Shown here: positions 51,079-63,142 of the stretch, piece after piece
Position numbering within the stretch: position 1 is the first letter of the stretch
How the letters are laid out: the number at the start of each line of letters is the position of its first letter
DNA from: Oligoflexia bacterium
Lineage (GTDB): Bacteria; Bdellovibrionota_C; UBA2361; JBGSMV01
Reading direction: 5' to 3'
Assembly: GCA_019694515.1 (NCBI GenBank)
Contig: JAIBBU010000012.1
Span: 1 to 64,000, forward strand
DNA: 64,000 bases
Made by a program: the position numbers and the translations under genes
The notes under the pieces: generated by a model
Database searches by the model: none
What the model saw: the letters and a program-made list of their open reading frames with translations, nothing else
Told to the model about the DNA's origin: nothing

Positions 51079-53013
51079 TTAAGTTAGCAGGCCGGCCGGC
51101 CGTTCGAGCATTGCATCGACCTTCTTAGCCAGTTCATCCCGCGAAATCGGCTTGGCAAGGAATCCGTCCATTCCTGCCTCGTAGCAGCGCTTCGCATCCT
51201 CTTCCGTTACGCTGGCAGAGAGCGCAATCACCGGCACATGGTTCTTGGTTTGACGCTCCAGCGCCCTTAACTGGCGCGTCGCTTCCAGCCCATCCATTAA
51301 AGGCATATTAATATCCATCAGCACTAGATCAACCTTAAGACTTCGCAACGTGTCCAGGCATTCGATCCCATTATTCGCCACCAAGACTTTGTAGCCTCTC
51401 TTTTCCAGGATGCGTTTGGCCAACGCCTGGTTAACGGCCTGATCTTCGACCACCAAAACTGTCCGAAGATTGTCAGCCGCACGGGGTGGCGCCGGCTTGG
51501 TGTAGGTCTGCGCAAAATCGATCGCATTGGAGCGGGCCGGCACGATACTCAGGTCGCGCTCTACGGAGATAGAAACTTTGAAGATACTCCCCACCCCGAC
51601 CTGGCTGCTTACTGAAACGTCTCCGTGCATAGCCTCCACTAATCGCGAAACAATCGCTAATCCCAAGCCGCTACCGCCAAAATTCAGCCGCGGATCCTTG
51701 ATCTGCTTGAATGGCTTAAAAATGAGCTCCAGCTGTTCCGCGGGAATTCCAATGCCGTTGTCTTCCACGGCGAGCATCAATTGCACCTGCGTATTCGTTT
51801 CGGCTTCGGCTTCAACGCTCTCGATGCTCAAGCGCACCGTGCCGCCTTGCGCTGTAGCTTTGTGCGCATTTCCAATTAGATTCACCAAGATCTGCGAAAT
51901 TCGCCCCACATCGCCAATCAAATGATCAGGGACACTCGGACTAATGCGATGCTCCAACGCCACCCCTTTAGATTTAAAGGAATGCTCGAAGATCTTCATT
52001 GTCCGGCTGATAAAATCCCGCAGCGTAAATTTCGTCGGATGTAATGTAATGCGTGACACCTCGAATTTGGAGAAATCCAAAATGTCATTGATAATGGAGA
52101 GGAGCGAATCCCCCGCGTTCTTGACCGTATTCAACAGGTCACGCTGTTCCGCGTCGAGCGAGGTATCTAAGATTTCATCCGTCATGCCCAAAATTGCATG
52201 CAGCGGCGTTCGCAGCTCATGGCTCATATTAGCAACAAAGAGCGACTTCGCCTTATCAGCAGCTTCGGCGCGATCCTTGGCTTGCCTTAACGATTTGTCG
52301 CGCTCATTCAGCTGCTCGAGCATCACGTTGAAAGCCTGAATCAACTCATTAACTTCATTATCATCAGTGGAGTCGAGGCGCAGGGAAAAATCATTGGTTT
52401 CGGAGACGGTGTGAGCGGCTAAGCGCAATTTCCTGATCGGGTTAATCACCCAAAGCTCTAACTTGTGTCGAAAGAATACTGCGACCAGAATTGAAAGCAC
52501 CAACACGCCAAATGTCAGGGCGAGGATCCAAGCAAGCTGCTGGTACAAGGAATTGGGACTGACCTGAATCAACACCGAGCCCACGATCTCGCCATCTAAG
52601 GTAACCGGCTCGCGATAATTGAACGAATCCCAGGTCCAGATTGCATGCGACAACTGCGGTAATGCACGTTGTACAGGCTGGGTGATCGGAACTCCGAACT
52701 CGGCCAGGGACTTCCCCTGAGGATCCAACAGTGCGGCATAGCGGATTGAATCCCGTTCGTGCAGCGCGGCCAAGACGCGCTCCGCCGCCTCACGGTCGTT
52801 AAATGCCAGCGCCGCGCGCGATGTGCTCGCCACAATCGCGGTGATCGACCGAATCTCTTGCTTAAAGTAACGCAGCGAAGAAGATAAAGTCACCAGCAAG
52901 AACCCGAATAAGCAGGTTAGCACGGTGATGGTAATCGCCAACAAAAATACCCGACTCAAATGTTCGGTAAGAGAATTACTGCCAGGGCGATTGGCGGGTG
53001 TGATTTTCTGCAC
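51079..53013 (-). CDS. CHASE8-type hybrid sensor histidine kinase
   Basis: This is a membrane hybrid kinase of 644 residues. Two transmembrane helices (about 22-45 and 160-182) frame a periplasmic domain whose [32 protein letters not shown] matches the CHASE8 domain of YfiN-like proteins. HAMP (185-245), HisKA (phospho-His265 in SHELRTP), HATPase (N-box [26 protein letters not shown]) and a C-terminal receiver (Asp567 in LMDINMP, Lys621) follow. All key residues are present. It starts at GTG 53013. A YfiR-like protein at 60323 is a plausible partner. Confidence 0.95.
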
Positions 53014-53158
53014 GCTTGAACACCAAGATCGGATTACGAACTTTCGAATGCACGATCAATCAAACAATAAAAACTTACCCGTAATCGTACGCTTAGCCAA
53101 GCTCAAAGCCCAAATAGTTCTACGAAATGTTAACGACGTAAACCGAGCGCTGCTGCAA

Positions 53159-54937
53159 TCAGGCCGACTTCTTTTCGACCTCGAGAATCAGCGCCGACTG
53201 CCCTGCAATAAGGGCGCTAGATCGAAGCCGTTTCCGCTCTGTCAGCTGCACCAGCAGGGCCTCTAATTGCCGAGGCTCAACCGGCTTTGACAGATAGCCA
53301 TCCATGCCGCTAGCCATACAGCGCTTTTGATCGTCTTTCATCACAAGCGCGCTGAGCGCATAGATACAGACCTGTCGATTGTCCCCCAGTTCGATCGAGC
53401 GAATTTGCCTGGTGACTTCCAGCCCGTTCATTCCGGGAAGTTGAATGTCCATTAGGATTAGGTCGAATCGGCCTTTTTCCAATCTTTTTAGACATTCCTC
53501 AGCTGAATGGGAGACGGCGACCCGGTGTCCGAGGTTGGTGAGGAGTCGTTTGGTGAGAGAGGCGCTCACATAACTATCTTCGACGACCAGAACATCAAGA
53601 CCTCCAGCGCACAGCTGCGAATTTTTGGCGGGAATGCGCGCACCCGCCGGCAGGGTAAGATGCAGGGCCTCTGAAAAAGGCTGGACTGGGATGAACATCC
53701 TTAAACTAGAAGATTGGCTGGAGGATCTATGAATGACCAACTCGGCTTCGGTCGACACAGCAGCAGCCGCCGATCTCAAAGCTCCAGGGATCTCGCTCAC
53801 AGCTCCGTCCGCGAACACCCGCAACACGATCCTAAAGCCGTCTATAACTCGGTGCTTAATTTTAATACGCACTTTCTTTCGCGGAGCGGCGTCTAATATG
53901 GTCTCGAAAAAGGCACTAAACAGGCGCAGGAGGGCCTGCCGGTCAGCAACAATCCCGTCTGGGACAGAGTCGTCAACGCGACAGCTGAGCTTAACTCCAC
54001 GCACGCCGGCACGTAGTTCAAAAACCTCAAAAACTCGCGACAACATTCCGCGCAGCGCAAACGGGGCCGTTGCGGCTTCACCATCTACTGGCCCGGATGG
54101 CTGCTGCGGCACACCATACACCTCCTGCATCGCGTCCAGGATGGGAAGATTTTCATCCTGCGCAGGCTTCCGCTCCAATAGCGGAGCCAGTCCTGGAAAG
54201 TGTTCCAGAAGTGCCGCAACTTCCGCTGTCGATGCAGATGTTTGGATTGAGCTGTCCGCCAGCAATATCGTTGCGATCTCGTCAATTTGGGGGAGATATG
54301 TACGACCGACTCCATCTGGCCGCGCCTCCACTGTCAGCAAAGGTCGCACTGGCTCTGGAAGTTGGAGCGACCCATCCCTGATTCCATCAATGCGCAGACG
54401 TAGCAGCACGCCTGGATTTCCCTGTACATGCGAGCACTCGCAAACCTCTCCGAGCAGCTCAAACCCCAAACTTTCCTGGTAAAACGACTTTACGCGGGGG
54501 TGCACTACAATGATCCAATCCTGTACGCTAAGCCGAAGGCACCAATGAAATAGCGCTCTCAGGAGTCCCGCACCAACAATGCTGGTATTACCCAATCCGC
54601 TCTTTGGCGCAGGCGTCGCGTGACAACAAGCAAACTTCGTGCTCTCCAAAACCCGGCGTCCTAACCGCCGCAACTCTCGAAGTTTCTCCGGATAAATTGG
54701 ATCACAAGGCAGACCCGCCGCTCCGTCCAGCTGGGCAGTGGCTGTGCCCACCACGCGCTTATCTTGCAATGTCACGAAGGTCGTGGACACCGGCAAGAAA
54801 TCCCTTAGAAAGACCCTTAAGCCCGAGCGACGGGGCGACATTAACCCACTGCGACAATACTCATCGTGCACTAAATGAAGCGCCTGATAAAAATCGGAGA
54901 AATTTCGTACGGGGACAATTTTCAAGGAACTGGGCAT
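53159..54937 (-). CDS. FeeM-like acyltransferase fused to degenerate ATPase and receiver domain
   Basis: This 592-residue protein has an unusual layout. Residues 1-195 look like the GNAT-type core of N-acyl amino acid synthase FeeM: HLVHDEYCRSG, TTFVTLQDKRVVGTATAQLDGAAGLP, LRELRRLGRRVLESTKFA. A middle part (about 295-420) recalls a histidine-kinase ATPase domain (SVPDGIVADRQALLRLF) but lacks the N-box Asn and glycine boxes. The C-terminal receiver (about 447-570) has VVEDS, Asp497 in LMDIQLP and Lys551. I use ATG 54937; TTG 54967 is possible. The FeeM part may make a lipid-amino-acid signal; phosphorylation of the receiver could control it. Confidence 0.85.
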   Translation of the reverse strand: MPSSLKIVPVRNFSDFYQALHLVHDEYCRSGLMSPRRSGLRVFLRDFLPVSTTFVTLQDKRVVGTATAQLDGAAGLPCDPIYPEKLRELRRLGRRVLESTKFACCHATPAPKSGLGNTSIVGAGLLRALFHWCLRLSVQDWIIVVHPRVKSFYQESLGFELLGEVCECSHVQGNPGVLLRLRIDGIRDGSLQLPEPVRPLLTVEARPDGVGRTYLPQIDEIATILLADSSIQTSASTAEVAALLEHFPGLAPLLERKPAQDENLPILDAMQEVYGVPQQPSGPVDGEAATAPFALRGMLSRVFEVFELRAGVRGVKLSCRVDDSVPDGIVADRQALLRLFSAFFETILDAAPRKKVRIKIKHRVIDGFRIVLRVFADGAVSEIPGALRSAAAAVSTEAELVIHRSSSQSSSLRMFIPVQPFSEALHLTLPAGARIPAKNSQLCAGGLDVLVVEDSYVSASLTKRLLTNLGHRVAVSHSAEECLKRLEKGRFDLILMDIQLPGMNGLEVTRQIRSIELGDNRQVCIYALSALVMKDDQKRCMASGMDGYLSKPVEPRQLEALLVQLTERKRLRSSALIAGQSALILEVEKKSA

Positions 54938-55533
54938 AGCGCTTACCACACCACAGGCAATTAACAATTATCAAAAAAATTTGGTCAGAGATCCGTTTTC
55001 GTCCGGATGGGTAAGGTTGGACTAAGATACTATTTAGTGCCGACGATGACTCCGTGATCCCGCGGAAGACTTTTTCTCTCTAAAATTTCAAAACCTGCCT
55101 CACAAAAAGCTGTACATGCTGCCGCCACTTATTGCGCATGCCGCGCCGATTATTCTTTACTGGAAAATACGGAGAATCTAAAGCGGCAGCGGCTATTTTA
55201 AAGATAGCGTGGTTCTGCGTAATAAAAAAACGATTCCGTAACGCAGGCTCAGCGGGAGAATTTGCGAATTGGACACATCTCGAAGTCTGCAGTTGCGTAG
55301 GCATGGGAAAAAGCTTTTACCCTATTTTCATATTGCAACAAAAGTTCGCGCCGGGATTTTACTAGATACATTCCAACAAAAATGTGGTTTCAGTGTCGAC
55401 CCAGCAGCACCGCTGCCTTTATTCGGAAGCCGGCGTAAACGTCGTTTGGAGCGCACAGGTGAATGGCGTTAACAATTCGCAGCCGAGTAAAAAGAAGTTA
55501 GTATCATCCGAACGAAGGGAGCTGCTTGTCCGG
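54938..55533. other. Gene-poor 596-bp spacer
   Basis: No gene I would support lies here. The stretch is AT-richer than its surroundings and contains short open frames on both strands (up to 77 codons) without ribosome sites or protein-like sequence. It must hold the promoter for the FeeM-type gene on the minus strand. Confidence 0.5.
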
Positions 55534-56250
55534 CTAGACTCTAGTTATCAGCCGATAACCCTGACGCCTCACGGCCTCAATCAGAACCGTCGTCGCTAAA
55601 AGTTTTTTTCGAAGCCGCACGATAAAGACATCGATTACACGTGAGGACTTGGCGCTGCCTCGACTGGGGAGTGTCGCAATGAGCTCCGCCCGCGAAACGC
55701 ATTTACCTGAGCGCAGTGCTAACAGCATCAGAATCTCCAGCTCCGATGGACTCAATGCGATTTGGCCGGAAGAAGAATAGACTATCGATTGAAACACATC
55801 GATTTGCAGGTCTCCAATTTTAAGGTAGTTAGGTCCATTATGAGGCCGGACGCGGCGGAAACGCCTGCAAAGTAGAATAATCTTCGTGCCCAGCAGACTC
55901 GGAGAATAACTCTTCAGGACATAATCGTCGGCCCCCTGCTCTAGACACTTCTGAATATCATTCTCTTCAGCGGTGCTACTGTAGACGATAATTGGAAGGG
56001 AAGCGGTGTGGGGATTTGCGCGCAGCTCGCGGCAAGACTCCGTGCACGATTGCCCAGGCACGTTATCAACTACAACCATCGCCGGTTTGTAATGCTCGGC
56101 CGTGCTAAGCAGCTCTGTCCCGTGTTGGATCCAACGAACTTCAAAACCTTGAGCAGCAAGTACGTTCCGAACAACGGTGCCACAGGTGATTTCGTCTTCA
56201 AGCAGAAGCACCTTAATGGGAGCACTAATCAAACGTGGTAAATCTGCCAC
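55534..56250 (-). CDS. OmpR/PhoB-family response regulator
   Basis: This is a two-component regulator of 238 residues. The receiver domain (about 12-125) has the acidic pair in LLLEDE, phospho-acceptor Asp in VVVDNVPG, a Ser/Thr in VYSST and Lys in YVLKSYS. The C-terminal winged helix (about 145-238) has ALSPSELEILMLLALRSGKCVSRAELI, and VIDVFIVRLRKKLLATTVLIEAVRRQGYRL with its transactivation loop and recognition helix. It starts at GTG 56250. No kinase is adjacent on the same transcript; the hybrid kinase at 51079 is a candidate partner. Confidence 0.94.
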   Translation of the reverse strand: MADLPRLISAPIKVLLLEDEITCGTVVRNVLAAQGFEVRWIQHGTELLSTAEHYKPAMVVVDNVPGQSCTESCRELRANPHTASLPIIVYSSTAEENDIQKCLEQGADDYVLKSYSPSLLGTKIILLCRRFRRVRPHNGPNYLKIGDLQIDVFQSIVYSSSGQIALSPSELEILMLLALRSGKCVSRAELIATLPSRGSAKSSRVIDVFIVRLRKKLLATTVLIEAVRRQGYRLITRV

Positions 56251-56398
56251 TGAACCGGCCTACCCCAAAAACTTAGACACGACGTGACGTAACTCGCTAT
56301 TCACAAAAATCTAGCAGAAAGTAAGCCAATCTGCGAGAAGGTATCACTAATTGCGGTGACCTGCAGCAATTTTTTAGGCTACAGATCTAGTCACTCGA

Positions 56399-58075
56399 CT
56401 ATCCAAGTCCGTATCTTCCGGGCGCTATAATGCCTCCAGGATCGACTGCTGCCTTAAGCCGGCCGAGAAAGTCAGCAGCAGCGGGGTTCCGGTTTTGCAA
56501 GAATGCTGCCTTGGCAGGATCGCTGCTCGCCCGATAGGGCGTAAAACCAGCGGCAAAATAACCGTTTACCAAGGTCTCGTAACAGCGATCAGCAGCCTCT
56601 GTTTGCCGGGTGTTTTGGGGGTCAAAGAATAATCCCACCGTGCAAACAGCCGTGCGTTCTGTGGGAACGGAAACAGTCGTGTTAAAATCAAAGCCAAACT
56701 TGGCGTGCATTTCTCGCGATAATCGCAGGAACTCCGCCATGCAATCCGCGGTCAAAGGCACCACAGGGGAGCACCAAGCAACCCCGCATTTGTCACGCAC
56801 CGGATTGCGATTAGTTTCAGGCGCGGGCTCTCTCTTCATCCAGTAAGTTCCGAGCATTGGTCCCTCGTTAGGACGCCCCAGGAGCAGATCGAACAGTGCA
56901 AGTCGCGGCTCGATTCGATGCCCCATCACATACTGATACAGACGGGGAAAGCGTCCGGCGGAGCGTGCCAAGCCCGCAGAAATAAACCTTACTGAGGCAT
57001 GTTTACCAAGACGCTTCTTAATATATCTTAGCTCGGGTTTGATAATCTCCTTGCGCCCCCACATCCCGCCAATGCCGTTCCACGCATGAATTTTCCATTT
57101 ACGCATCAAGCTCGCACGGGACGCAGCCGACAGTGCAGGACCAGAGTCTCCCGCACTGAAAGGAAATTGCTGGAAGGAACACAACACTCGCATTTCGTTA
57201 GCGATATGAAGCGATCCCTCCAGATAGCCCTCCATCTTAATCTCCCTAATCGCATCGATTGATCGAATCAGAGATCGATCGTCGGAAAAATTTAGATTCA
57301 ATGCCCCAAGATGCTGCGGCTTGGGCAGCAGCCAAACCCCCATCTTTGTTACGATTCCTAAGTTGGATTGACTAAAAAGCCCGTCGAGAAAAGGCCCCAC
57401 GCCCCATTTATGAAGATAGGTCGAGCGCGAGTTTTCAAATTGTCCGAATCCTGTCGCCAGCAGCTCTCCGTTAGGCAAAACGACCTCTAATCCGGCAAAG
57501 CTTTGAAAATGATCAGCATAGTGTGTAAATCCGTACCCACGTTCTAATGTGTTCGCAATCACACTGGCTGTCGGAGCGGAGCCGGTTACGTCGGAGAAAA
57601 GATGCGGAGCGTGCTGCTCCAGGTAAACACTTAAATCCAGCTGCGTTACTCCGGGTTCGACAACTGCAACGCCCAGCACCGGATCGATTCCCAGAATCTT
57701 GTTCATCCGGCTTAAGTCCACCACCACGTTATGCGCGGAAGAGGGACAGGCCGACCCGTACCCCCAGTTCCGTCCACCACTTACAGGATAAAGCGGGATG
57801 CCGTGCGTGGCCGCGATTGAGACAATGCCTTGAACCTCCACCGCGTTATGCGGGAAGACCGCCGCGCTAACAATTTGGGTACGGCTTCCGGTATCCGCAG
57901 TGTATGGGGCGAGCGCCGCCGACTCCCGCAGCACCCTCTCCTGCCCCAATAGCGCGCCAAGTTTTGTTAACGCTATTAACAAATTTGCAGGACTGCTCTG
58001 TGTTGCCTCCGCTGTGTTAATCATAGTAGTGCTCATATGGTTTGAGACGGTTGAACTGCAAGGGACGTATGCCAC
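56399..58075 (-). CDS. VAO/4-cresol-dehydrogenase-like FAD-linked oxidase
   Basis: This is a flavoenzyme of 558 residues of the vanillyl-alcohol oxidase family, which oxidises para-substituted phenols. The FAD domain has PVSGGRNWGYGSACPSS and ANTLERGYGFTHYADHFQSFAGLEVVLPNGE, close to the PchF/VAO sequences; the substrate domain ends DFLGRLKAAVDPGGIIAPGRYGLG. There is no cytochrome gene beside it, so oxygen or another acceptor may be used. GTG 58075 is shown; ATG 58036 is also possible and neither has a well-placed ribosome site. It is divergent from the TonB receptor gene at 58188. Confidence 0.9.
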   Translation of the reverse strand: MAYVPCSSTVSNHMSTTMINTAEATQSSPANLLIALTKLGALLGQERVLRESAALAPYTADTGSRTQIVSAAVFPHNAVEVQGIVSIAATHGIPLYPVSGGRNWGYGSACPSSAHNVVVDLSRMNKILGIDPVLGVAVVEPGVTQLDLSVYLEQHAPHLFSDVTGSAPTASVIANTLERGYGFTHYADHFQSFAGLEVVLPNGELLATGFGQFENSRSTYLHKWGVGPFLDGLFSQSNLGIVTKMGVWLLPKPQHLGALNLNFSDDRSLIRSIDAIREIKMEGYLEGSLHIANEMRVLCSFQQFPFSAGDSGPALSAASRASLMRKWKIHAWNGIGGMWGRKEIIKPELRYIKKRLGKHASVRFISAGLARSAGRFPRLYQYVMGHRIEPRLALFDLLLGRPNEGPMLGTYWMKREPAPETNRNPVRDKCGVAWCSPVVPLTADCMAEFLRLSREMHAKFGFDFNTTVSVPTERTAVCTVGLFFDPQNTRQTEAADRCYETLVNGYFAAGFTPYRASSDPAKAAFLQNRNPAAADFLGRLKAAVDPGGIIAPGRYGLG

Positions 58076-58187
58076 TACTCCTAAGCAGAATCAAATCGGC
58101 CTACATCTAGCCGTCTAGCGACCCCCTGCAAGCGGAAGCTTGGAAGCGAGCCGCGGTAGATGCGCCTTTTGGACATTTGGTAGAAGC

Positions 58188-60098
58188 ATGAAGAAGATCC
58201 TGTTTGCTCCACTGCTCACCGTTCTCTTAATCACTCACCTCGCCCAAGCTGAGGAGCTTTTCGGCGCAGCCGGAACACCCGCCCCGCTGCCTCCTGATCT
58301 ACGTGAAGTCGGACTGGAAAAACTGCTCAATTTGGACCTGATCGTTACCTCCCCGGGGAGGAAGGAGCAGGCGCTCTCCGATGTGGCATCAGCGACTTTT
58401 GTTATTTCGCAGGAAGACATTGCACGCTCGGGCGCCACTCATGTCGCCGAGCTGCTGCGGTTTGTGCCGGGGGTGAATGTGGCGCGTCTCTCTTCAGGAC
58501 ATTGGGCCGTGAGCGCGCGTGGCTTTAATCAATTATTTGCAAATAAGCTCCTGGTCTTGATCGATGGAGTCAGCGTTTTCTCTCCCACCACCAACGGAGT
58601 CTATTGGGAAACCATCGATCTGCCCCTGCCCGACATTGAGCGAATCGAGGTGGTTAGAGGGCCGGGAGGCTCGCTCTGGGGTTCAAATGCAGTCAACGGC
58701 GTAATTAATATCATTACCAAACACGCGTCACAAACCCATGGCACCCTTCTATCGGGGGGTGGCGGCACACACGAAGAAGGTTTTGGCTTGGTCCGGCAAG
58801 GTGGAAGACTCGGAGAGGACAGCGATTATCGCATTTTTGGGAAATACTCCTCGCGCGCATCGAATCGCACTCCCGAGGACAAAAGCGCATTAGATGACTG
58901 GTCCAGTGGGGCCATGGGATTTCGCCTTGATTCGGCGCTTGAGTCCGGCAGAAACATCTCGGTACAGGCCAATGCCTCGCAGCAAGATGAGAATTATCAA
59001 CCTCTCACGCCAACCTTAGACCCTCCCTATATGGATGCCGAAAAATTTCGGGATGATGGCACCTGGAAAAGCGCCACGGCCTTGACCCAGTGGCAGGAGC
59101 AGCTAAGCCCGGACTCGGACCTCAGCGCGAACTTGAGTTTTCTTTACAAAGAGCGTGCTAGCCGTTTTGTAACATTCGACTACCAAGTCTATACCCTAGA
59201 GATTCAACATCATTATCGTGCCGGCGGCATTCACGATCTTGTCTACGGTGCCGGCTATCGCGCTTTTGCGAATTCGGCCGAGGGATCAGTAGGGCACGAG
59301 GTGGACCCCTCAGGCCGCACCACGGATCTCTACACGGGCTTTCTGCAAGATGAGATTACCGTCGTACCGGAACGCTTCAAGCTTATCGTGGGATCCAAAT
59401 TTGAGCATAATGACCACACCGGGATGGAGATAATGCCTACTATTCGCGGGCTATACACTCCTAATCGGAGCACCACCTTTTGGACAGCAGCTTCGCGCGC
59501 GATCGCATCACCAGCCATTTTCTTTGAGGACACGAGGATCCCTGTGGCGGGATTCCCTGCTCCGGGCGCCCCGCTTACTGCAGTCGCAGAAATAGTAGGC
59601 AATCCCGATCTTGCTTCGGAGCGGCTTCTCGAGTACGAGATCGGGGCTCGGCAGGATATCGACGCCTCTCTCTACCTAGATTTGTCTGCTTTTTATGCTA
59701 GCCACGACAACATTTTTGGACAGGAAGCGGGCGATCCGTTTGTGGCCAATTATGCGGATTCAGGACGACCCGCTCTAATCATACCGCTGATCTTCGGAAA
59801 TACTCTGGAAGGACAATCTTATGGGGTAGAAGCAGCCCTCAATTGGAAAGCGCGATCCAATTGGACCTTAGCTGCCAGCTACACATTCTTCGATGTCGAC
59901 ATATCACTCGCAGGTGGTCAGGACACCGCCAACCGTGATCTGATTGAGGGCGGCTCCCCGCAACATCAAGCTACTTTTTCTTCTTCAGTTGATCTAAGCA
60001 ATCGATGGAGCTTGTACTCGGCGGTTCGCTATGTGGACGAGCTGGGCTACGGGAACATCAATGGATATTTGGACGCGGACGTTAAGCTGGCCTGGTAG
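58188..60098 (+). CDS. TonB-dependent receptor, truncated by an in-frame amber codon
   Basis: This is an outer-membrane receptor for active uptake. A signal peptide (MKKILFAPLLTVLLITHLAQA) precedes a plug domain (about 40-165; ARSGATHVAELLRFVPGVNVARL, NKLLVLIDGVSVF, IERIEVVRGPGGSLWGSNAVNGVINIITK) and barrel strands to residue 636. The TAG at 60096-60098 falls before the last strands; the missing 46 codons are in frame after it (see 60099-60239). ATG 58188 is chosen for the signal peptide; an in-frame ATG at 58140 lies upstream. The ligand is unknown. The YfiR-like gene follows. Confidence 0.92.
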   Translation: MKKILFAPLLTVLLITHLAQAEELFGAAGTPAPLPPDLREVGLEKLLNLDLIVTSPGRKEQALSDVASATFVISQEDIARSGATHVAELLRFVPGVNVARLSSGHWAVSARGFNQLFANKLLVLIDGVSVFSPTTNGVYWETIDLPLPDIERIEVVRGPGGSLWGSNAVNGVINIITKHASQTHGTLLSGGGGTHEEGFGLVRQGGRLGEDSDYRIFGKYSSRASNRTPEDKSALDDWSSGAMGFRLDSALESGRNISVQANASQQDENYQPLTPTLDPPYMDAEKFRDDGTWKSATALTQWQEQLSPDSDLSANLSFLYKERASRFVTFDYQVYTLEIQHHYRAGGIHDLVYGAGYRAFANSAEGSVGHEVDPSGRTTDLYTGFLQDEITVVPERFKLIVGSKFEHNDHTGMEIMPTIRGLYTPNRSTTFWTAASRAIASPAIFFEDTRIPVAGFPAPGAPLTAVAEIVGNPDLASERLLEYEIGARQDIDASLYLDLSAFYASHDNIFGQEAGDPFVANYADSGRPALIIPLIFGNTLEGQSYGVEAALNWKARSNWTLAASYTFFDVDISLAGGQDTANRDLIEGGSPQHQATFSSSVDLSNRWSLYSAVRYVDELGYGNINGYLDADVKLAW

Positions 60099-60239
60099 CC
60101 GCGCCCGCATCTTGAGTTGAGTATAGTTGGACAAAACCTGCTGCATGATGCCCATACAGAATTCCAAGCCAATCTGTTCGGTCCTCCCCGGACAGGACTG
60201 GAACGAGCGGTGTATGCTGCAGCGAGTCTGTCCTTTTAG
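60099..60239 (+). pseudogene. In-frame C-terminal end of the TonB receptor, beyond the amber codon
   Basis: Forty-six codons follow TAG 60096 in the same frame, then TAG 60237. They encode the segment typical of the end of TonB receptors (LELSIVGQNLLHDAH, then ERAVYAAASLSF), finishing with the C-terminal Phe needed for barrel insertion. This shows that the gene ran through this point and that the amber is a nonsense mutation, a readthrough site or a base-calling error. Confidence 0.85.
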
Positions 60240-60322
60240 ACCGAGGAAGTTGTGCTATTGCACGGCGACTAGGCACCGCCCGAGCAATCTGCAGCTGTTT
60301 GAGCAGGAGTTCTAAGGGAAAG

Positions 60323-60955
60323 ATGTTAGATACTGGAATTAAAGGGGGGCTGTCTTGGTTAATCTGGTCGCGGAGCGTCTCTGGTTTGCTGGCCCTGCTG
60401 CTCTATTGCTTCCCCGCGCCTAGCTCCGCCAACCCTTTGCCTGAGCGCAAAGAGATCGACGATCGTCCTCATCGCATCAAAGCTGCGATCGTTTTTAATG
60501 TGATGAAGTTCATCCGCTGGCCCCAGGAATCCAAAAATGCAGGCCAACCCTTTAATCTCTGCGTGGTGGGCACCCAAGATCGAGTCTCGCGATACTTTGC
60601 CGAAACATTTCGCGGTCAAACGGTCCGCGGCCGCCCGATTTCGTTGATCGAAATCTCCGATGGCGAGCTCGAAAATTCCAAGTATGGCCCGTGCCAAACC
60701 ATTTACATCTCACGCCACCTCCCTAGTGAACTAAGGCAAAAAGTTACTCAACTGCTGAGTCAAAACATGGGGATACTGACAATTTGCGAGGTCGAGGCCC
60801 CCGGACCGTCTGACTGCATGCTCCAAATATACGAATCAGGGAACAAGGCCAAGCTGGCCCTGGATAGCTCCCGCATAAATCAAATGCAGCTTGCACTTAG
60901 CTCCGAGCTTCTTTCCCTAGCCGTCGATGTCTCACACCCAGAAAGGAGCGAATAG
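60323..60955 (+). CDS. YfiR-like (DUF4154) periplasmic protein
   Basis: This is an exported protein of about 210 residues. A hydrophobic signal (SGLLALLLYCFPAPSSA) is followed by the YfiR-family domain: HRIKAAIVFNVMKFIRWP, FNLCVVGTQDRVSRYF, GPCQTIYISRHLP, GILTICEV and LALDSSRINQMQLALSSELLSLA. YfiR binds the periplasmic domain of YfiN in the YfiBNR system. Here it follows a TonB receptor, a frequent pairing, and could act on the CHASE8 kinase at 51079. ATG 60323 has AAGGGA five bases upstream and replaces an upstream in-frame TTG (60299). Confidence 0.9.
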   Translation: MLDTGIKGGLSWLIWSRSVSGLLALLLYCFPAPSSANPLPERKEIDDRPHRIKAAIVFNVMKFIRWPQESKNAGQPFNLCVVGTQDRVSRYFAETFRGQTVRGRPISLIEISDGELENSKYGPCQTIYISRHLPSELRQKVTQLLSQNMGILTICEVEAPGPSDCMLQIYESGNKAKLALDSSRINQMQLALSSELLSLAVDVSHPERSE

Positions 60956-60960
60956 TCGCC

Positions 60961-62241
60961 ATGGCACGTATTTTATTCATCAGCGAAGCGATGACATTAA
61001 CCCATGTGGTACGCTCGCATGTGTTAGGCTCTCACCTTGCCCAACAGGGACATGCGGTGACGCTGGCCGCTGGAAAATACTTTGACCGTCTATTCAAAAC
61101 ATTTCCCGGCGAGCGGCGAGATTTGCGATCCTCCCGTCATCCCGCGGATTTTCGCACGATTCTCGGCAAGGGTGGAGTCATCTTTGACTACGAAGTGCTC
61201 TCAGGTTTTTTGAGCGAAGAGCTCCAGCTATTCAAAGAGCTCAAGCCCGACTTGGTGGTCGGAGATTTGCGTCCGTCGCTGGCCGTCAGCACTCGACTTG
61301 CGGCGCTCCCGTTAATTACCATTACGAACGCTTATTGGAGCAGACATCTCCGTGGTCAATATTTTCCCCCACCCTGCCTTGACGCTGTGGCTGGACTCAA
61401 TTTAGGGAGATTGGGGGGCCCCGCCGTTCTCATGGCCCTCAAGCTGCTCAACGCAGCGATCCTCCCGGGAGTCCTGAAGGCGCAGGGGGCGGGACTTAAC
61501 CGTCTCCGGCTGGAGCATCGACTTGATCCGTTTGAGCATTATCTGGACGGCTTCACCTTTGGTGATGAGATTTGCTTTACTGACGCACAGGAACTTTTTC
61601 CGCTGCAAAATGCTCCCGCAAATCACAACTTTATTGGTCCGATTTCATGGTCACCGAGCGTAAACCTGCCTCCCTGGTGGGAGGAGGTGCGCACGCGAAG
61701 GCCTCTGATCTATGTGAACCTCGGTTCCTCGGGCGATGCCCGCGCCCTGGCGCTGGTCCTCGATACTCTGGCCGGGTTTGACTGCACAGTGGCCGCTGCC
61801 AGCTCTGGCACACCATTAAAGCTGGGCCGCAGCAGCAACATTCACCTGGCTGACTACCTTCCGGGCGACGAAATTTTGAAGTCCGCAACCTTGGCGATCT
61901 GTAATGGCGGCAGCCCGGCCTGCTACCAGGCGCTGTCGAAGGGAGTACCTATCATCGCTATCCCGACCAATATGGATCAGCTGCTCTTTTCGCACTGCCT
62001 GCAGAAGCATGGGTTCGGGATAAGCTTGCGGTCCGATACGCTCCGACCGTCACAAATACGGAGTGCAATTTCGAGGCTGCTACGAAACGGGGCACGCGAC
62101 CGCTATCGCACCCTAGCGGCGCACCTCAGCGCCTGTGAACCAGAACGCCAATTTCAACGAATTGCGCAGCGACTCCTGTCAAGTTCCACCTTAACTGCAC
62201 CAGAGAACTCGGAAGAATGGAGGAAACAGCATGCCGGTTAG
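60961..62241 (+). CDS. GT1-family (UGT/MGT-like) glycosyltransferase
   Basis: This is a GT-B-fold glycosyltransferase of 426 residues. The N-terminus RILFISEAMTLTHVVRSHVLGSHLAQQGHAVTLAAG and the C-terminal donor site (NIHLADYLPGDEIL, CNGGSPACYQALSKGVPIIAIPTNMDQLLFSH) match the UDP-glucuronosyl/glycosyltransferase family, which glycosylates lipids, sterols, antibiotics or other small molecules. The His in the usual acceptor site near the start is replaced by the LTHV segment. AAGGAG lies about 12 bases before ATG 60961. Its end overlaps the methyltransferase by 11 bases. Confidence 0.9.
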   Translation: MARILFISEAMTLTHVVRSHVLGSHLAQQGHAVTLAAGKYFDRLFKTFPGERRDLRSSRHPADFRTILGKGGVIFDYEVLSGFLSEELQLFKELKPDLVVGDLRPSLAVSTRLAALPLITITNAYWSRHLRGQYFPPPCLDAVAGLNLGRLGGPAVLMALKLLNAAILPGVLKAQGAGLNRLRLEHRLDPFEHYLDGFTFGDEICFTDAQELFPLQNAPANHNFIGPISWSPSVNLPPWWEEVRTRRPLIYVNLGSSGDARALALVLDTLAGFDCTVAAASSGTPLKLGRSSNIHLADYLPGDEILKSATLAICNGGSPACYQALSKGVPIIAIPTNMDQLLFSHCLQKHGFGISLRSDTLRPSQIRSAISRLLRNGARDRYRTLAAHLSACEPERQFQRIAQRLLSSSTLTAPENSEEWRKQHAG

Positions 62242-63142
62242 TGACTATGAGCGCTGCGATCTTTGTCAGGAACAATGCGGTTTTGATCGCGCCCAGGAGG
62301 TACGCCGCGTCAATTGCCATGTGCGTAGCCACCGCCAAGACATTTTCACAGTTTGGCGCTGTCCCAGCTGCAGCAGCCTGCATTCCAAGGAAGCGGTCGA
62401 TTTAGCCAAGTACTACGCCGACTACCCGTTAAAGAAACACAAGCCTACTATTCACACCCATATTGCCTATCGTAATCGCCATCGCTTGCTGAAGCGCTGG
62501 GGCCTCGGCGCTAATAACTCGATTTTAGATTTCGGCTGCGGCACCGGACTTTTCGTGAAATACATGCGACAGCGCGGATACCAGGTTAGCGGATTTGATG
62601 CTTTCGTCCCGGAATTTTCCGACTCTCAAGCTCTGGCTCGTAACTATGACGCGGTTCTTTCCTTCGACGTAATCGAGCACCTTGATCGTCCCGCCGAGCT
62701 TTTCCAACAGCTCTTTGATCTAACTGCCCCGGGAGGACTGCTAGTAGTCGGAACCCCCGATGCCTCCGGCTTGGACCTGGGGGCCAAAATCCCTCCCGTG
62801 GAGCTCTCTCAACCCTTCCACCGGCACATTCTCTCGGAGCAAGCACTAATTCAGATCGCAAAACGCTTCGATCTTATCCCTGAATTTGCGTTCAGACGTT
62901 CCTATTTCGACTCCTTGATTCCAACCGTAAATATGCGCTTTATGTGGGCGTATCTGAATGCTTCCGGGGGCATGCTGGACTCCATGGTCGAACCAATTAA
63001 TTGGGGACGCGTTTTACGCTCTCCGCGGTTAATTTTCTATGCCTTGGCGGGATACTTTTTGTACGAACCTGGGAACATGATCATTGCGTTTCGAAAGCCG
63101 CACGCTGAAGCTCTCGAGGTTCGACGCGCTGGCAATCAATAG
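62231..63142 (+). CDS. SAM-dependent methyltransferase with N-terminal zinc-finger-like segment
   Basis: This is a class I methyltransferase of 303 residues. An N-terminal Cys-rich segment (CDLCQEQC, CPSCSS) may bind zinc. The SAM site follows (SILDFGCGTGLFVKYMRQRGYQVSGFDAF; FDVIEHLDRPAELFQQLFDLTAPGGLLVVGTPD), and a hydrophobic stretch lies near the C-terminus. ATG 62231 has GGAGG at 62219-62223 with a 7-base spacer and overlaps the glycosyltransferase by 11 bases, so the pair is coupled. They may together decorate the same glycan or small molecule. Confidence 0.92.
   Translation: MPVSDYERCDLCQEQCGFDRAQEVRRVNCHVRSHRQDIFTVWRCPSCSSLHSKEAVDLAKYYADYPLKKHKPTIHTHIAYRNRHRLLKRWGLGANNSILDFGCGTGLFVKYMRQRGYQVSGFDAFVPEFSDSQALARNYDAVLSFDVIEHLDRPAELFQQLFDLTAPGGLLVVGTPDASGLDLGAKIPPVELSQPFHRHILSEQALIQIAKRFDLIPEFAFRRSYFDSLIPTVNMRFMWAYLNASGGMLDSMVEPINWGRVLRSPRLIFYALAGYFLYEPGNMIIAFRKPHAEALEVRRAGNQ

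Follow-up and report, generated by a model that had tools for sequence, protein, structure and literature searches.

A conserved gene cluster pairing a FeeM-family fusion protein with a TonB-YfiR-CHASE8 kinase module, possibly coupling N-acyl amino acid synthesis to sensing

Introduction

The products of N-acyl amino acid synthases, which acylate an amino acid with acyl-ACP or acyl-CoA as the donor, have been discussed as signals, and the synthases themselves resemble LuxI-type autoinducer synthases in fold. The YfiBNR system comprises YfiR, a GGDEF cyclase as the output and the lipoprotein YfiB. The product class of the FeeM, NasY and TyzA clusters is N-acyl (dehydro)tyrosine, as set out in passages of three papers (PMC10404671, PMC12479983, PMC7293339). 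In the RpfC-RpfF (DSF) system of Xanthomonas, contact between receiver and synthase controls synthesis (a section of PMC4504480), and in the RetS-GacS system of Pseudomonas, the active kinase is modulated by a second protein that is itself of kinase type (a section of PMC5992135). Within the portions of the open-licence literature covered, no paper was found that joins YfiR, a TonB-dependent receptor and CHASE8, or DUF4154 and TonB, and no receptor was found tied to N-acyl amino acid synthases. Here, a locus that carries both a FeeM-family synthase and a TonB-YfiR-CHASE8 kinase module is described from a 64,000-nucleotide stretch of an Oligoflexia bacterium contig (the window).

Results

The first-pass annotation had placed six genes at this locus (kinase, FeeM fusion, OmpR regulator, VAO oxidase, TonB receptor and YfiR), and all six were confirmed at those positions, each with a significant family match (Table 1). 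The unit reaches 63142, beyond position 60955 where that annotation ended, and includes a glycosyltransferase (GT) that starts 5 bp past YfiR and a methyltransferase that overlaps the GT by 11 bp. The TonB open reading frame (ORF) of the window is closed by an in-frame stop 47 codons ahead of the conserved C terminus. An 11-mer found in two intergenic stretches was considered as a shared regulatory motif and dropped because one copy lies within the read-on TonB tail.

Table 1 Features of the cluster, in window positions
Feature	Position	Strand	Remarks
CHASE8-HAMP-HisKA-HATPase-REC hybrid histidine kinase	51079..53013	-	Pfam domains; box motifs H, N, G1 and G2 all kept; CHASE8 at about 52567-52872
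FeeM fusion protein, 602 aa	53159..54967	-	putative N-acyl amino acid synthase, helical linker, predicted degenerate kinase ATPase fold, receiver
FeeM (putative N-acyl amino acid synthase) domain of fusion	54395..54886	-	family match; fold match 2g0b, Z 21.9
Predicted degenerate histidine-kinase ATP-binding (GHKL/CA) fold of fusion	53675..54082	-	without N, G1 or G2 box
Receiver (REC) domain of fusion	53255..53593	-	phospho-acceptor Asp and Lys in place
OmpR/PhoB-type response regulator	55534..56250	-	REC and Trans_reg_C; counterpart adjoins same genes in G003
VAO/p-cresol methylhydroxylase family flavoenzyme	56399..58075	-	phenol-binding Tyr and Tyr-Arg kept
TonB-dependent receptor, related to NCBIfam NF053590	58140..60098	+	ORF closed by in-frame stop; conserved tail runs to 60239
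YfiR/HmsC-like periplasmic protein	60299..60955	+	DUF4154/YfiR match
GT1-type glycosyltransferase (EryCIII/CalG1-like)	60961..62241	+	family confined, within phylum, to five FeeM-fusion genomes
SAM-dependent methyltransferase	62231..63142	+	counterpart adjoins GT in G040

The neighborhood is a real conserved unit. Of the 45 genomes of the phylum that were compared, 5 have the FeeM fusion (G000, G003, G014, G040 and G041), and the GT family is present in exactly those five (Fisher 8e-7, uncorrected for relatedness). They belong to uncultured bacteria that are only distantly related to one another. All five look like fragmented metagenome-assembled genomes, and the last four are labeled as such. 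Kinase, VAO, GT, TonB and YfiR accompany the fusion in every case, with the set split between contigs in two assemblies. Our own HMMs used for these counts were trained on cluster proteins, which inflates the scores of cluster members. The kinase always adjoins the fusion, with OmpR between the two in G003. TonB and YfiR lie on the same contig as the fusion in G000, G014 and G003, are tied to the cluster via a split VAO gene in G040, and in G041 adjoin VAO and GT on a contig separate from that of the fusion. In G014, 4-bp overlaps join FeeM to the kinase and GT to VAO; a betaproteobacterium has the same overlap between VAO and GT. Scattering of these neighbors among related genomes, which the first-pass annotation had named as evidence against a common role, was sought and not seen; the set stays together, with the GT added. 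That the genes are neighbors by chance is extremely improbable: the flanks vary between genomes, as they would at any locus, but co-occurrence and linkage in five genomes from three families, with differing flanks, rule this out. Sister genomes lack the set.

FeeM and the GT are also joined beyond the phylum. Among the GT relatives, 80 of 99 were kept, representing 79 distinct loci; once four loci of the phylum itself had been dropped, 21 of 75 named loci had FeeM at a distance of no more than about 10 kb from the GT. Massilia and other Proteobacteria carry FeeM with the same GT family, and at the Massilia locus that was scanned the pair is accompanied by a ThiF gene and a GMC oxidoreductase. 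This association would fit a plain member of the PEP-CTERM/exosortase-linked N-acyl amino acid synthase loci, a link between synthase and exosortase that is stated in a passage of PMC7293339, after a 2011 paper. However, exosortase is absent from G003 and G014 and lies on contigs other than that of the cluster in G000, G040 and G041, and the Pfam scan found no ThiF or nitroreductase gene in the window cluster. This very improbable reading is thus ruled out by an exosortase that is missing in two of the five cluster genomes and unlinked in the others.

By family and fold, the enzyme part of the fusion is a putative N-acyl amino acid synthase (FeeM; E 4.5e-31; PF21926, 108.2 bits against a gathering score of 27). 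The model of the window protein matches both FeeM structure 2g0b (Z 21.9, rmsd 2.2 over 182 aligned residues) and LasI. FeeM motifs are present in all rows aligned, so the fusion proteins as such are not in decay. FeeM was also looked for outside the phylum, in 337 of 382 genomes, which yielded seven long FeeM-containing ORFs (482 aa or more); two fell below the family cut-off and were left out, and none of the five scanned with Pfam has kinase or receiver domains.

The middle of the fusion is predicted to be a degenerate histidine-kinase ATPase domain in which every kinase motif has been lost. Pfam recognizes no family in this part alone at E 10. In a fold search with it, all of the best 50 rows listed are ATPase folds of histidine kinases or of related GHKL proteins (Z 9.9 to 12.3, from a low-confidence model with a mean pLDDT of 57.6), and the kinase region of RetS is one of the closest among the matches listed. 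The H, N, G1 and G2 motifs are gone from the middle of all five fusion proteins and kept in all five neighbor kinases.

The evidence for descent of this tail from the neighbor kinase is divided. A BLAST search with the window middle domain against 21 kinase ORFs (some places taken twice) gave seven hits, the best four of them cluster kinases, and the best hit of the G003 domain is likewise a cluster kinase. The G040 domain hit one non-cluster kinase only, and those of G014 and G041 hit nothing at E 0.01. A profile of tail plus receiver ranks non-cluster kinases above cluster kinases (best 137 bits versus 120 and 115), which weakens descent from the neighbor. Thus, the BLAST search with the window domain speaks for such an origin, and the profile speaks against it.

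The C-terminal receiver (REC E 1.3e-24) suggests a conventional arrangement in which the neighbor kinase would phosphorylate it and so gate the enzyme, degenerate members being uncontrolled and their tails decaying. In the window, the receiver has its Asp and Lys and, among 21 kinase ORFs compared, most resembles that of the window cluster kinase (45%). Yet the window fusion is the only one to keep the phospho-acceptor Asp: it is Glu in G014 and G040 and Ala in G041, and the whole receiver is absent from G003, so phospho-control is no shared trait. Given also that the ATPase-like part is retained in five of five fusions and that the FeeM motifs argue against decay of the whole protein, this arrangement is unlikely.

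The VAO enzyme (FAD_binding_4, E 2.3e-23) matches p-cresol methylhydroxylase (PCMH; 1dii) at E 2.5e-72, and with the cluster profile at E 1.9e-106. Tyr95, Tyr473 and Arg474, the phenol-binding residues of PCMH, align and are conserved in all five cluster VAOs; the region of the covalent flavin attachment residue falls outside the alignment. A VAO is present in 7 of 8 FeeM genomes versus 2 of 37 other genomes of the phylum. The earlier suggestion that the VAO acts on the tyrosyl part of an N-acyl-tyrosine gains support from both observations. Some cluster members add a methyltransferase or a halogenase-like enzyme.

The first-pass annotation had read the periplasmic segment of the kinase as CHASE8-like and the gene after the TonB receptor as YfiR-like, and both readings hold. 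CHASE8 (E 3.2e-18) is followed by HAMP, HisKA, HATPase and REC; because the output is a histidine kinase with no GGDEF diguanylate cyclase, the protein falls outside YfiBNR proper. The YfiR gene matches DUF4154/YfiR at E 8.3e-28 (PF13689, 97.7 bits against a gathering score of 24.9), with no match at E 0.1 in a PDB sequence search, and the TonB receptor has a Plug domain (E 2e-23). The module as such is already known by NCBIfam names. The window TonB, YfiR and kinase match NF053590, NF053591 and NF053592 at E 4.6e-143, 3.2e-17 and 3.7e-41, below the curated cut-offs (478 versus 645, 62.9 versus 125 and 141.1 versus 194 bits).

The same module is also found without FeeM, for example at a second locus of the window genome (L034) and in G015, G041, G029 and others. 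YfiR occurs at 24 places in the phylum, with a TonB-like gene in the same retrieved stretch at 23 (two of these being weak matches of 34 and 56 bits) and a FeeM fusion at five. The ligand therefore need not be the cluster product. One possible, if somewhat doubtful, account is that the product of FeeM, VAO and GT is a membrane lipid or a surfactant and that the module turns the pathway on in response to some unrelated nutrient or cue from the envelope, with no self-sensing; the occurrence of the module without FeeM agrees with this, as do the Proteobacterial FeeM-GT loci without the sensor. Against it, the cluster YfiRs and most of the cluster TonBs are of one lineage rather than random copies: the YfiRs form a tree group (support 98/96) that takes in a single outsider, and all but one of the five TonBs form a group (100/99) within a clade (97/98) that also holds two outsiders. 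The kinase tree gave no resolution and was left unused. Moreover, YfiR and GT share order and strand in G000, G014 and G041, and the synthase itself bears an apparently kinase-derived tail.

Discussion

We put at about even the probability that this locus is a sensor-coupled cluster for an oxidized, glycosylated N-acyl (probably tyrosyl) amino acid, with the synthase tethered to the sensor by its kinase-derived tail. The amino acid that FeeM would acylate is probably tyrosine; its phenolic side chain would then be oxidized by the VAO-type flavoenzyme and a sugar added by the GT, with further additions by the methyltransferase or halogenase-like enzyme in some members. The TonB receptor, periplasmic YfiR and CHASE8 kinase may together carry information on an extracellular ligand from the outer membrane into the cytoplasm, and the simplest candidate for that ligand is the finished product. 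The kinase could control genes via the OmpR regulator, where present, and could also act directly on synthesis if the FeeM tail (a dead kinase ATPase with a receiver or its remnant) docks on the active kinase; the case for such docking is weakened in that no DHp dimerization domain was recognized in the fusion. Occupancy of the sensor would then set the activity of the synthase, as happens in Xanthomonas, where the DSF synthase RpfF is held by the receiver of RpfC. Points against this reading include the premature stop in the TonB gene of the window, the degenerate or missing receiver of the four other fusions and the low confidence of the model of the middle domain.

The earlier proposal that these genes make, oxidize, import and sense one acylated compound is thus borne out in part: the set is conserved, but the TonB-YfiR-kinase chain also exists without FeeM. 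A full cell-to-cell or self-sensing system, in which the synthase bears a dead copy of the very kinase that serves as its receptor, so that making and perceiving the signal happen within one complex, is a tentative and rather unlikely extension. There, TonB would read the glycosylated N-acyl amino acid, YfiR would pass the signal on to the CHASE8 kinase, and this kinase would control the docked FeeM. The cluster is a direct test case for whether the product binds the receptor and whether the kinase holds the synthase. It also gives a candidate role to TonB-YfiR-CHASE8 kinase modules, which have so far had locus-derived names only, and suggests a VAO/GT route distinct from the ThiF/nitroreductase route of the known N-acyl dehydrotyrosines.

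Among known systems, the NCBIfam trio (TOL_0244 TonB receptor, TOL_0243 YfiR-like protein and YfiR-associated sensor kinase) has the same three protein types adjoining, whereas the window proteins score below its cut-offs and FeeM, VAO and GT are extra. YfiBNR (TpbB) of Pseudomonas shares the YfiR-like periplasmic protein and the CHASE8-type periplasmic sensor domain; here, however, the output is a histidine kinase rather than a GGDEF cyclase, and a TonB receptor replaces lipoprotein YfiB. Unlike the RetS-GacS partners, the FeeM fusion has no recognized DHp domain and is joined to an enzyme. RpfC-RpfF is alike in outline, with a hybrid kinase, a signal synthase and contact between receiver and synthase (at the window locus, a contact that we infer), but the window synthase has the FeeM fold instead of the RpfF crotonase fold, its receiver is fused to the synthase, and sensing would proceed via TonB and YfiR. 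The FeeM/NasY/TyzA clusters (fee, tyz, stieleriacine, thalassotalic acid and kyonggic acid) likewise have a synthase of the FeeM family and flavoenzymes that tailor its product, and some of them also have a methyltransferase. They use ThiF and a nitroreductase where the window cluster has VAO and GT, and, in contrast to theirs, the window synthase is fused to a probably kinase-derived tail and accompanied by dedicated TonB-YfiR-kinase genes.

Conservation of the gene cluster

The six genes that the first-pass annotation read as a possible signal production, uptake and sensing locus (51079-60955) are all present at those coordinates, with strong family matches. Two further genes lie past YfiR in the same direction: an EryCIII/CalG1-like glycosyltransferase (GT) gene, starting 5 bp downstream, and a methyltransferase gene that overlaps the GT gene by 11 bp. 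The cluster is flanked by ychF and, further out, a tRNA-Met gene on the left, and by an M48 peptidase gene on the right.

Genes of the window cluster identified by family matches
Product	Coordinates	Strand	Evidence
CHASE8-HAMP-HisKA-HATPase-REC hybrid kinase	51079-53013	-	family matches
FeeM fusion, 602 residues	53159-54967	-	family matches
OmpR/PhoB-type regulator	55534-56250	-	family matches
Vanillyl-alcohol oxidase/p-cresol methylhydroxylase family flavoenzyme (VAO)	56399-58075	-	p-cresol methylhydroxylase, E 2.5e-72
TonB receptor	58140-60098	+	family matches
YfiR-like protein	60299-60955	+	family matches

The TonB frame is interrupted by a stop at 60096-60098, followed by 47 further open codons in frame (to 60239) that match the C-termini of the relatives' receptors. 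Given this conserved read-on, the receptor is either truncated in the window genome by a nonsense change or affected by an assembly error; the copies in relatives are intact. The 11-mer AAGCCAATCTG is common to the intergenic regions 56251-56398 and 60099-60298, probably by chance, because the second copy falls in the read-on TonB tail.

FeeM was detected above the cut-off in 8 of 45 genomes of the phylum, and the fusion with the same tail in 5, from three families: the window's genome (G000), G003, G014, G040, and G041. The tail profile scores 277 to 541 bits in these fusions, and the next best match scores 137. The cluster GT family (E <= 1e-20) occurs in exactly these five genomes (Fisher 8e-7, relatedness ignored). 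The VAO family is found in nine genomes, namely, 7/8 with FeeM and 2/37 others (Fisher 6e-6), and YfiR in 15, including all five with the fusion (Fisher 0.0025). The set is absent from sister genomes belonging to the same families as the five.

When relatives were examined for scattering of the neighboring genes, the set was found to be kept in G014 and G003 and to be split between contigs in G040 and G041. G014 carries kinase, FeeM fusion, TonB, YfiR, GT, and VAO within 9.5 kb, with 4-bp overlaps between FeeM fusion and kinase and between GT and VAO; the VAO/GT overlap in a betaproteobacterium is also 4 bp. The 14-kb G003 cluster comprises YfiR, TonB, FG-GAP protein, tryptophan-halogenase-like flavoenzyme, VAO, GT, kinase, OmpR, and FeeM fusion. 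Its FG-GAP repeat protein and flavoenzyme genes (L098:4416-8347) overlap by 4 bp, and ring halogenation by the latter is possible. One G040 contig carries GT, methyltransferase, kinase, FeeM fusion, and, at its end, the first part of VAO; another opens with the remaining part, followed by YfiR and TonB, and we infer that the two adjoin at the split gene. In G041, FeeM fusion and kinase share a 3.7-kb contig, and VAO, TonB, YfiR, and GT are together on a separate one. Among the five, only G000 and G003 have OmpR next to cluster genes, and only G000 and G040 have the methyltransferase there. Nothing was common among the flanks scanned, which contain polysaccharide genes (G014), a sigma factor (G040), and clpX (G003).

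The FeeM fusion protein

Residues 1 to 190 form the FeeM domain (Pfam 4.5e-31; nearest solved structure FeeM 2g0b, Z 21.9), the motifs of which are retained in all five fusions. A Pfam scan of the middle of the fusion gave no match; in a profile comparison, it paired with the cluster kinases at their ATPase core (97.6% probability, E 2.6e-12). The middle was also modeled by itself, with low confidence (mean pLDDT 57.6); this model matched histidine-kinase or related GHKL ATPase folds in 50/50 of the matches listed (Z 9.9 to 12.3), mostly over residues 96 to 231 of the piece, and the kinase region of RetS stood near the top of the list. The H box, N box, G1, and G2 motifs are present in 5/5 neighboring kinases but in 0/5 fusions. 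The receiver phospho-acceptor is kept only in the window, being Glu in G014 and G040 and Ala in G041, and the G003 fusion lacks the receiver. From sequence and model, we conclude that the protein is a predicted synthase carrying a pseudo-kinase tail, and that the constant feature of this tail is its ATPase-like part, not phosphorylation. The tail may have originated from the neighboring kinase: in a BLAST comparison of the window middle domain with 21 kinase ORFs, four cluster kinases rank first, but with the tail-plus-receiver profile other kinases outscore the cluster kinases.

No other FeeM kinase/receiver fusion was seen among 382 genomes searched, a search in which seven further long ORFs with FeeM turned up and five of them were scanned. 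Those five are one PilZ-FeeM and four FeeM-aminotransferase proteins. The former (genome G275, L163:1300-2745, minus strand), in which a PilZ domain is joined with a FeeM-like acyltransferase, suggests a c-di-GMP-controlled synthase; the latter, from four genomes belonging to other phyla (L011, L164, L166, and L167), combine a FeeM-like domain with a class V aminotransferase.

Predicted chemistry

The phenol-binding residues Tyr95 and Tyr473-Arg474 of p-cresol methylhydroxylase align to Tyr and Tyr-Arg in all five cluster VAOs. The first-pass annotation had connected the VAO with the tyrosyl part of N-acyl-tyrosine; the aligned residues support a phenolic substrate, and N-acyl-tyrosine itself is, with FeeM adjoining, the simplest candidate. 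Outside the fused clusters, too, VAO and FeeM are found together. A second FeeM cluster in G003 (L025:3629-14049) encodes a short FeeM, O-methyltransferase, VAO, ThiF-nitroreductase, DUF1302, LolA-like, and MMPL proteins. Among 75 named GT-carrying loci outside the phylum, FeeM lies within about 10 kb in 21 and VAO in 3.

The sensing module and comparison with known systems

A TonB-like match was found in the same fetched stretch at 23 of 24 YfiR places of the phylum (two weak). At several YfiR places a CHASE8 kinase is present but no FeeM; one of these is in the window's own genome, where a second TonB-YfiR-CHASE8 kinase module lies at L034:11848-16635. In the trees, one group (98/96) contains all five cluster YfiRs and a single truncated protein from G029. 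The cluster TonBs share a clade (97/98) with two proteins of G029, and four of the five form a group at 100/99. Thus, one sensor lineage mostly travels with the cluster. The kinase tree did not resolve the cluster kinases. In the betaproteobacterium Duganella lactea, a CHASE8 hybrid kinase at a contig end (L077:1-1986, minus strand) adjoins a GT of the cluster family.

The TonB-YfiR-kinase trio already has family names in NCBIfam (NF053590, NF053591, and NF053592), although the window members score below the cut-offs. Known N-acyl dehydrotyrosine and oxazolone clusters contain ThiF and nitroreductase proteins (PMC10404671, PMC12479983), whereas neither is found among the genes of the window cluster. 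The open-access literature yielded no account of such a FeeM fusion or of this cluster, which appears to combine the genes for an N-acyl amino acid with a dedicated sensing chain and a synthase tethered through a pseudo-kinase.

The DSF synthase RpfF is held through contact by the receiver of the hybrid kinase RpfC, without phosphorelay (PMC4504480), and the active kinase GacS is modulated by the kinase-type partner RetS (PMC5992135). Building on these precedents, we propose that the FeeM tail would dock on the CHASE8 kinase and that synthesis would be set by sensing through TonB and YfiR, with the ligand identity and the feedback likewise putative. For the pairing of a synthase with a kinase, RpfC-RpfF is the nearest parallel, the difference being that, in this cluster, a receiver, or the remnant of one, is built into the synthase.
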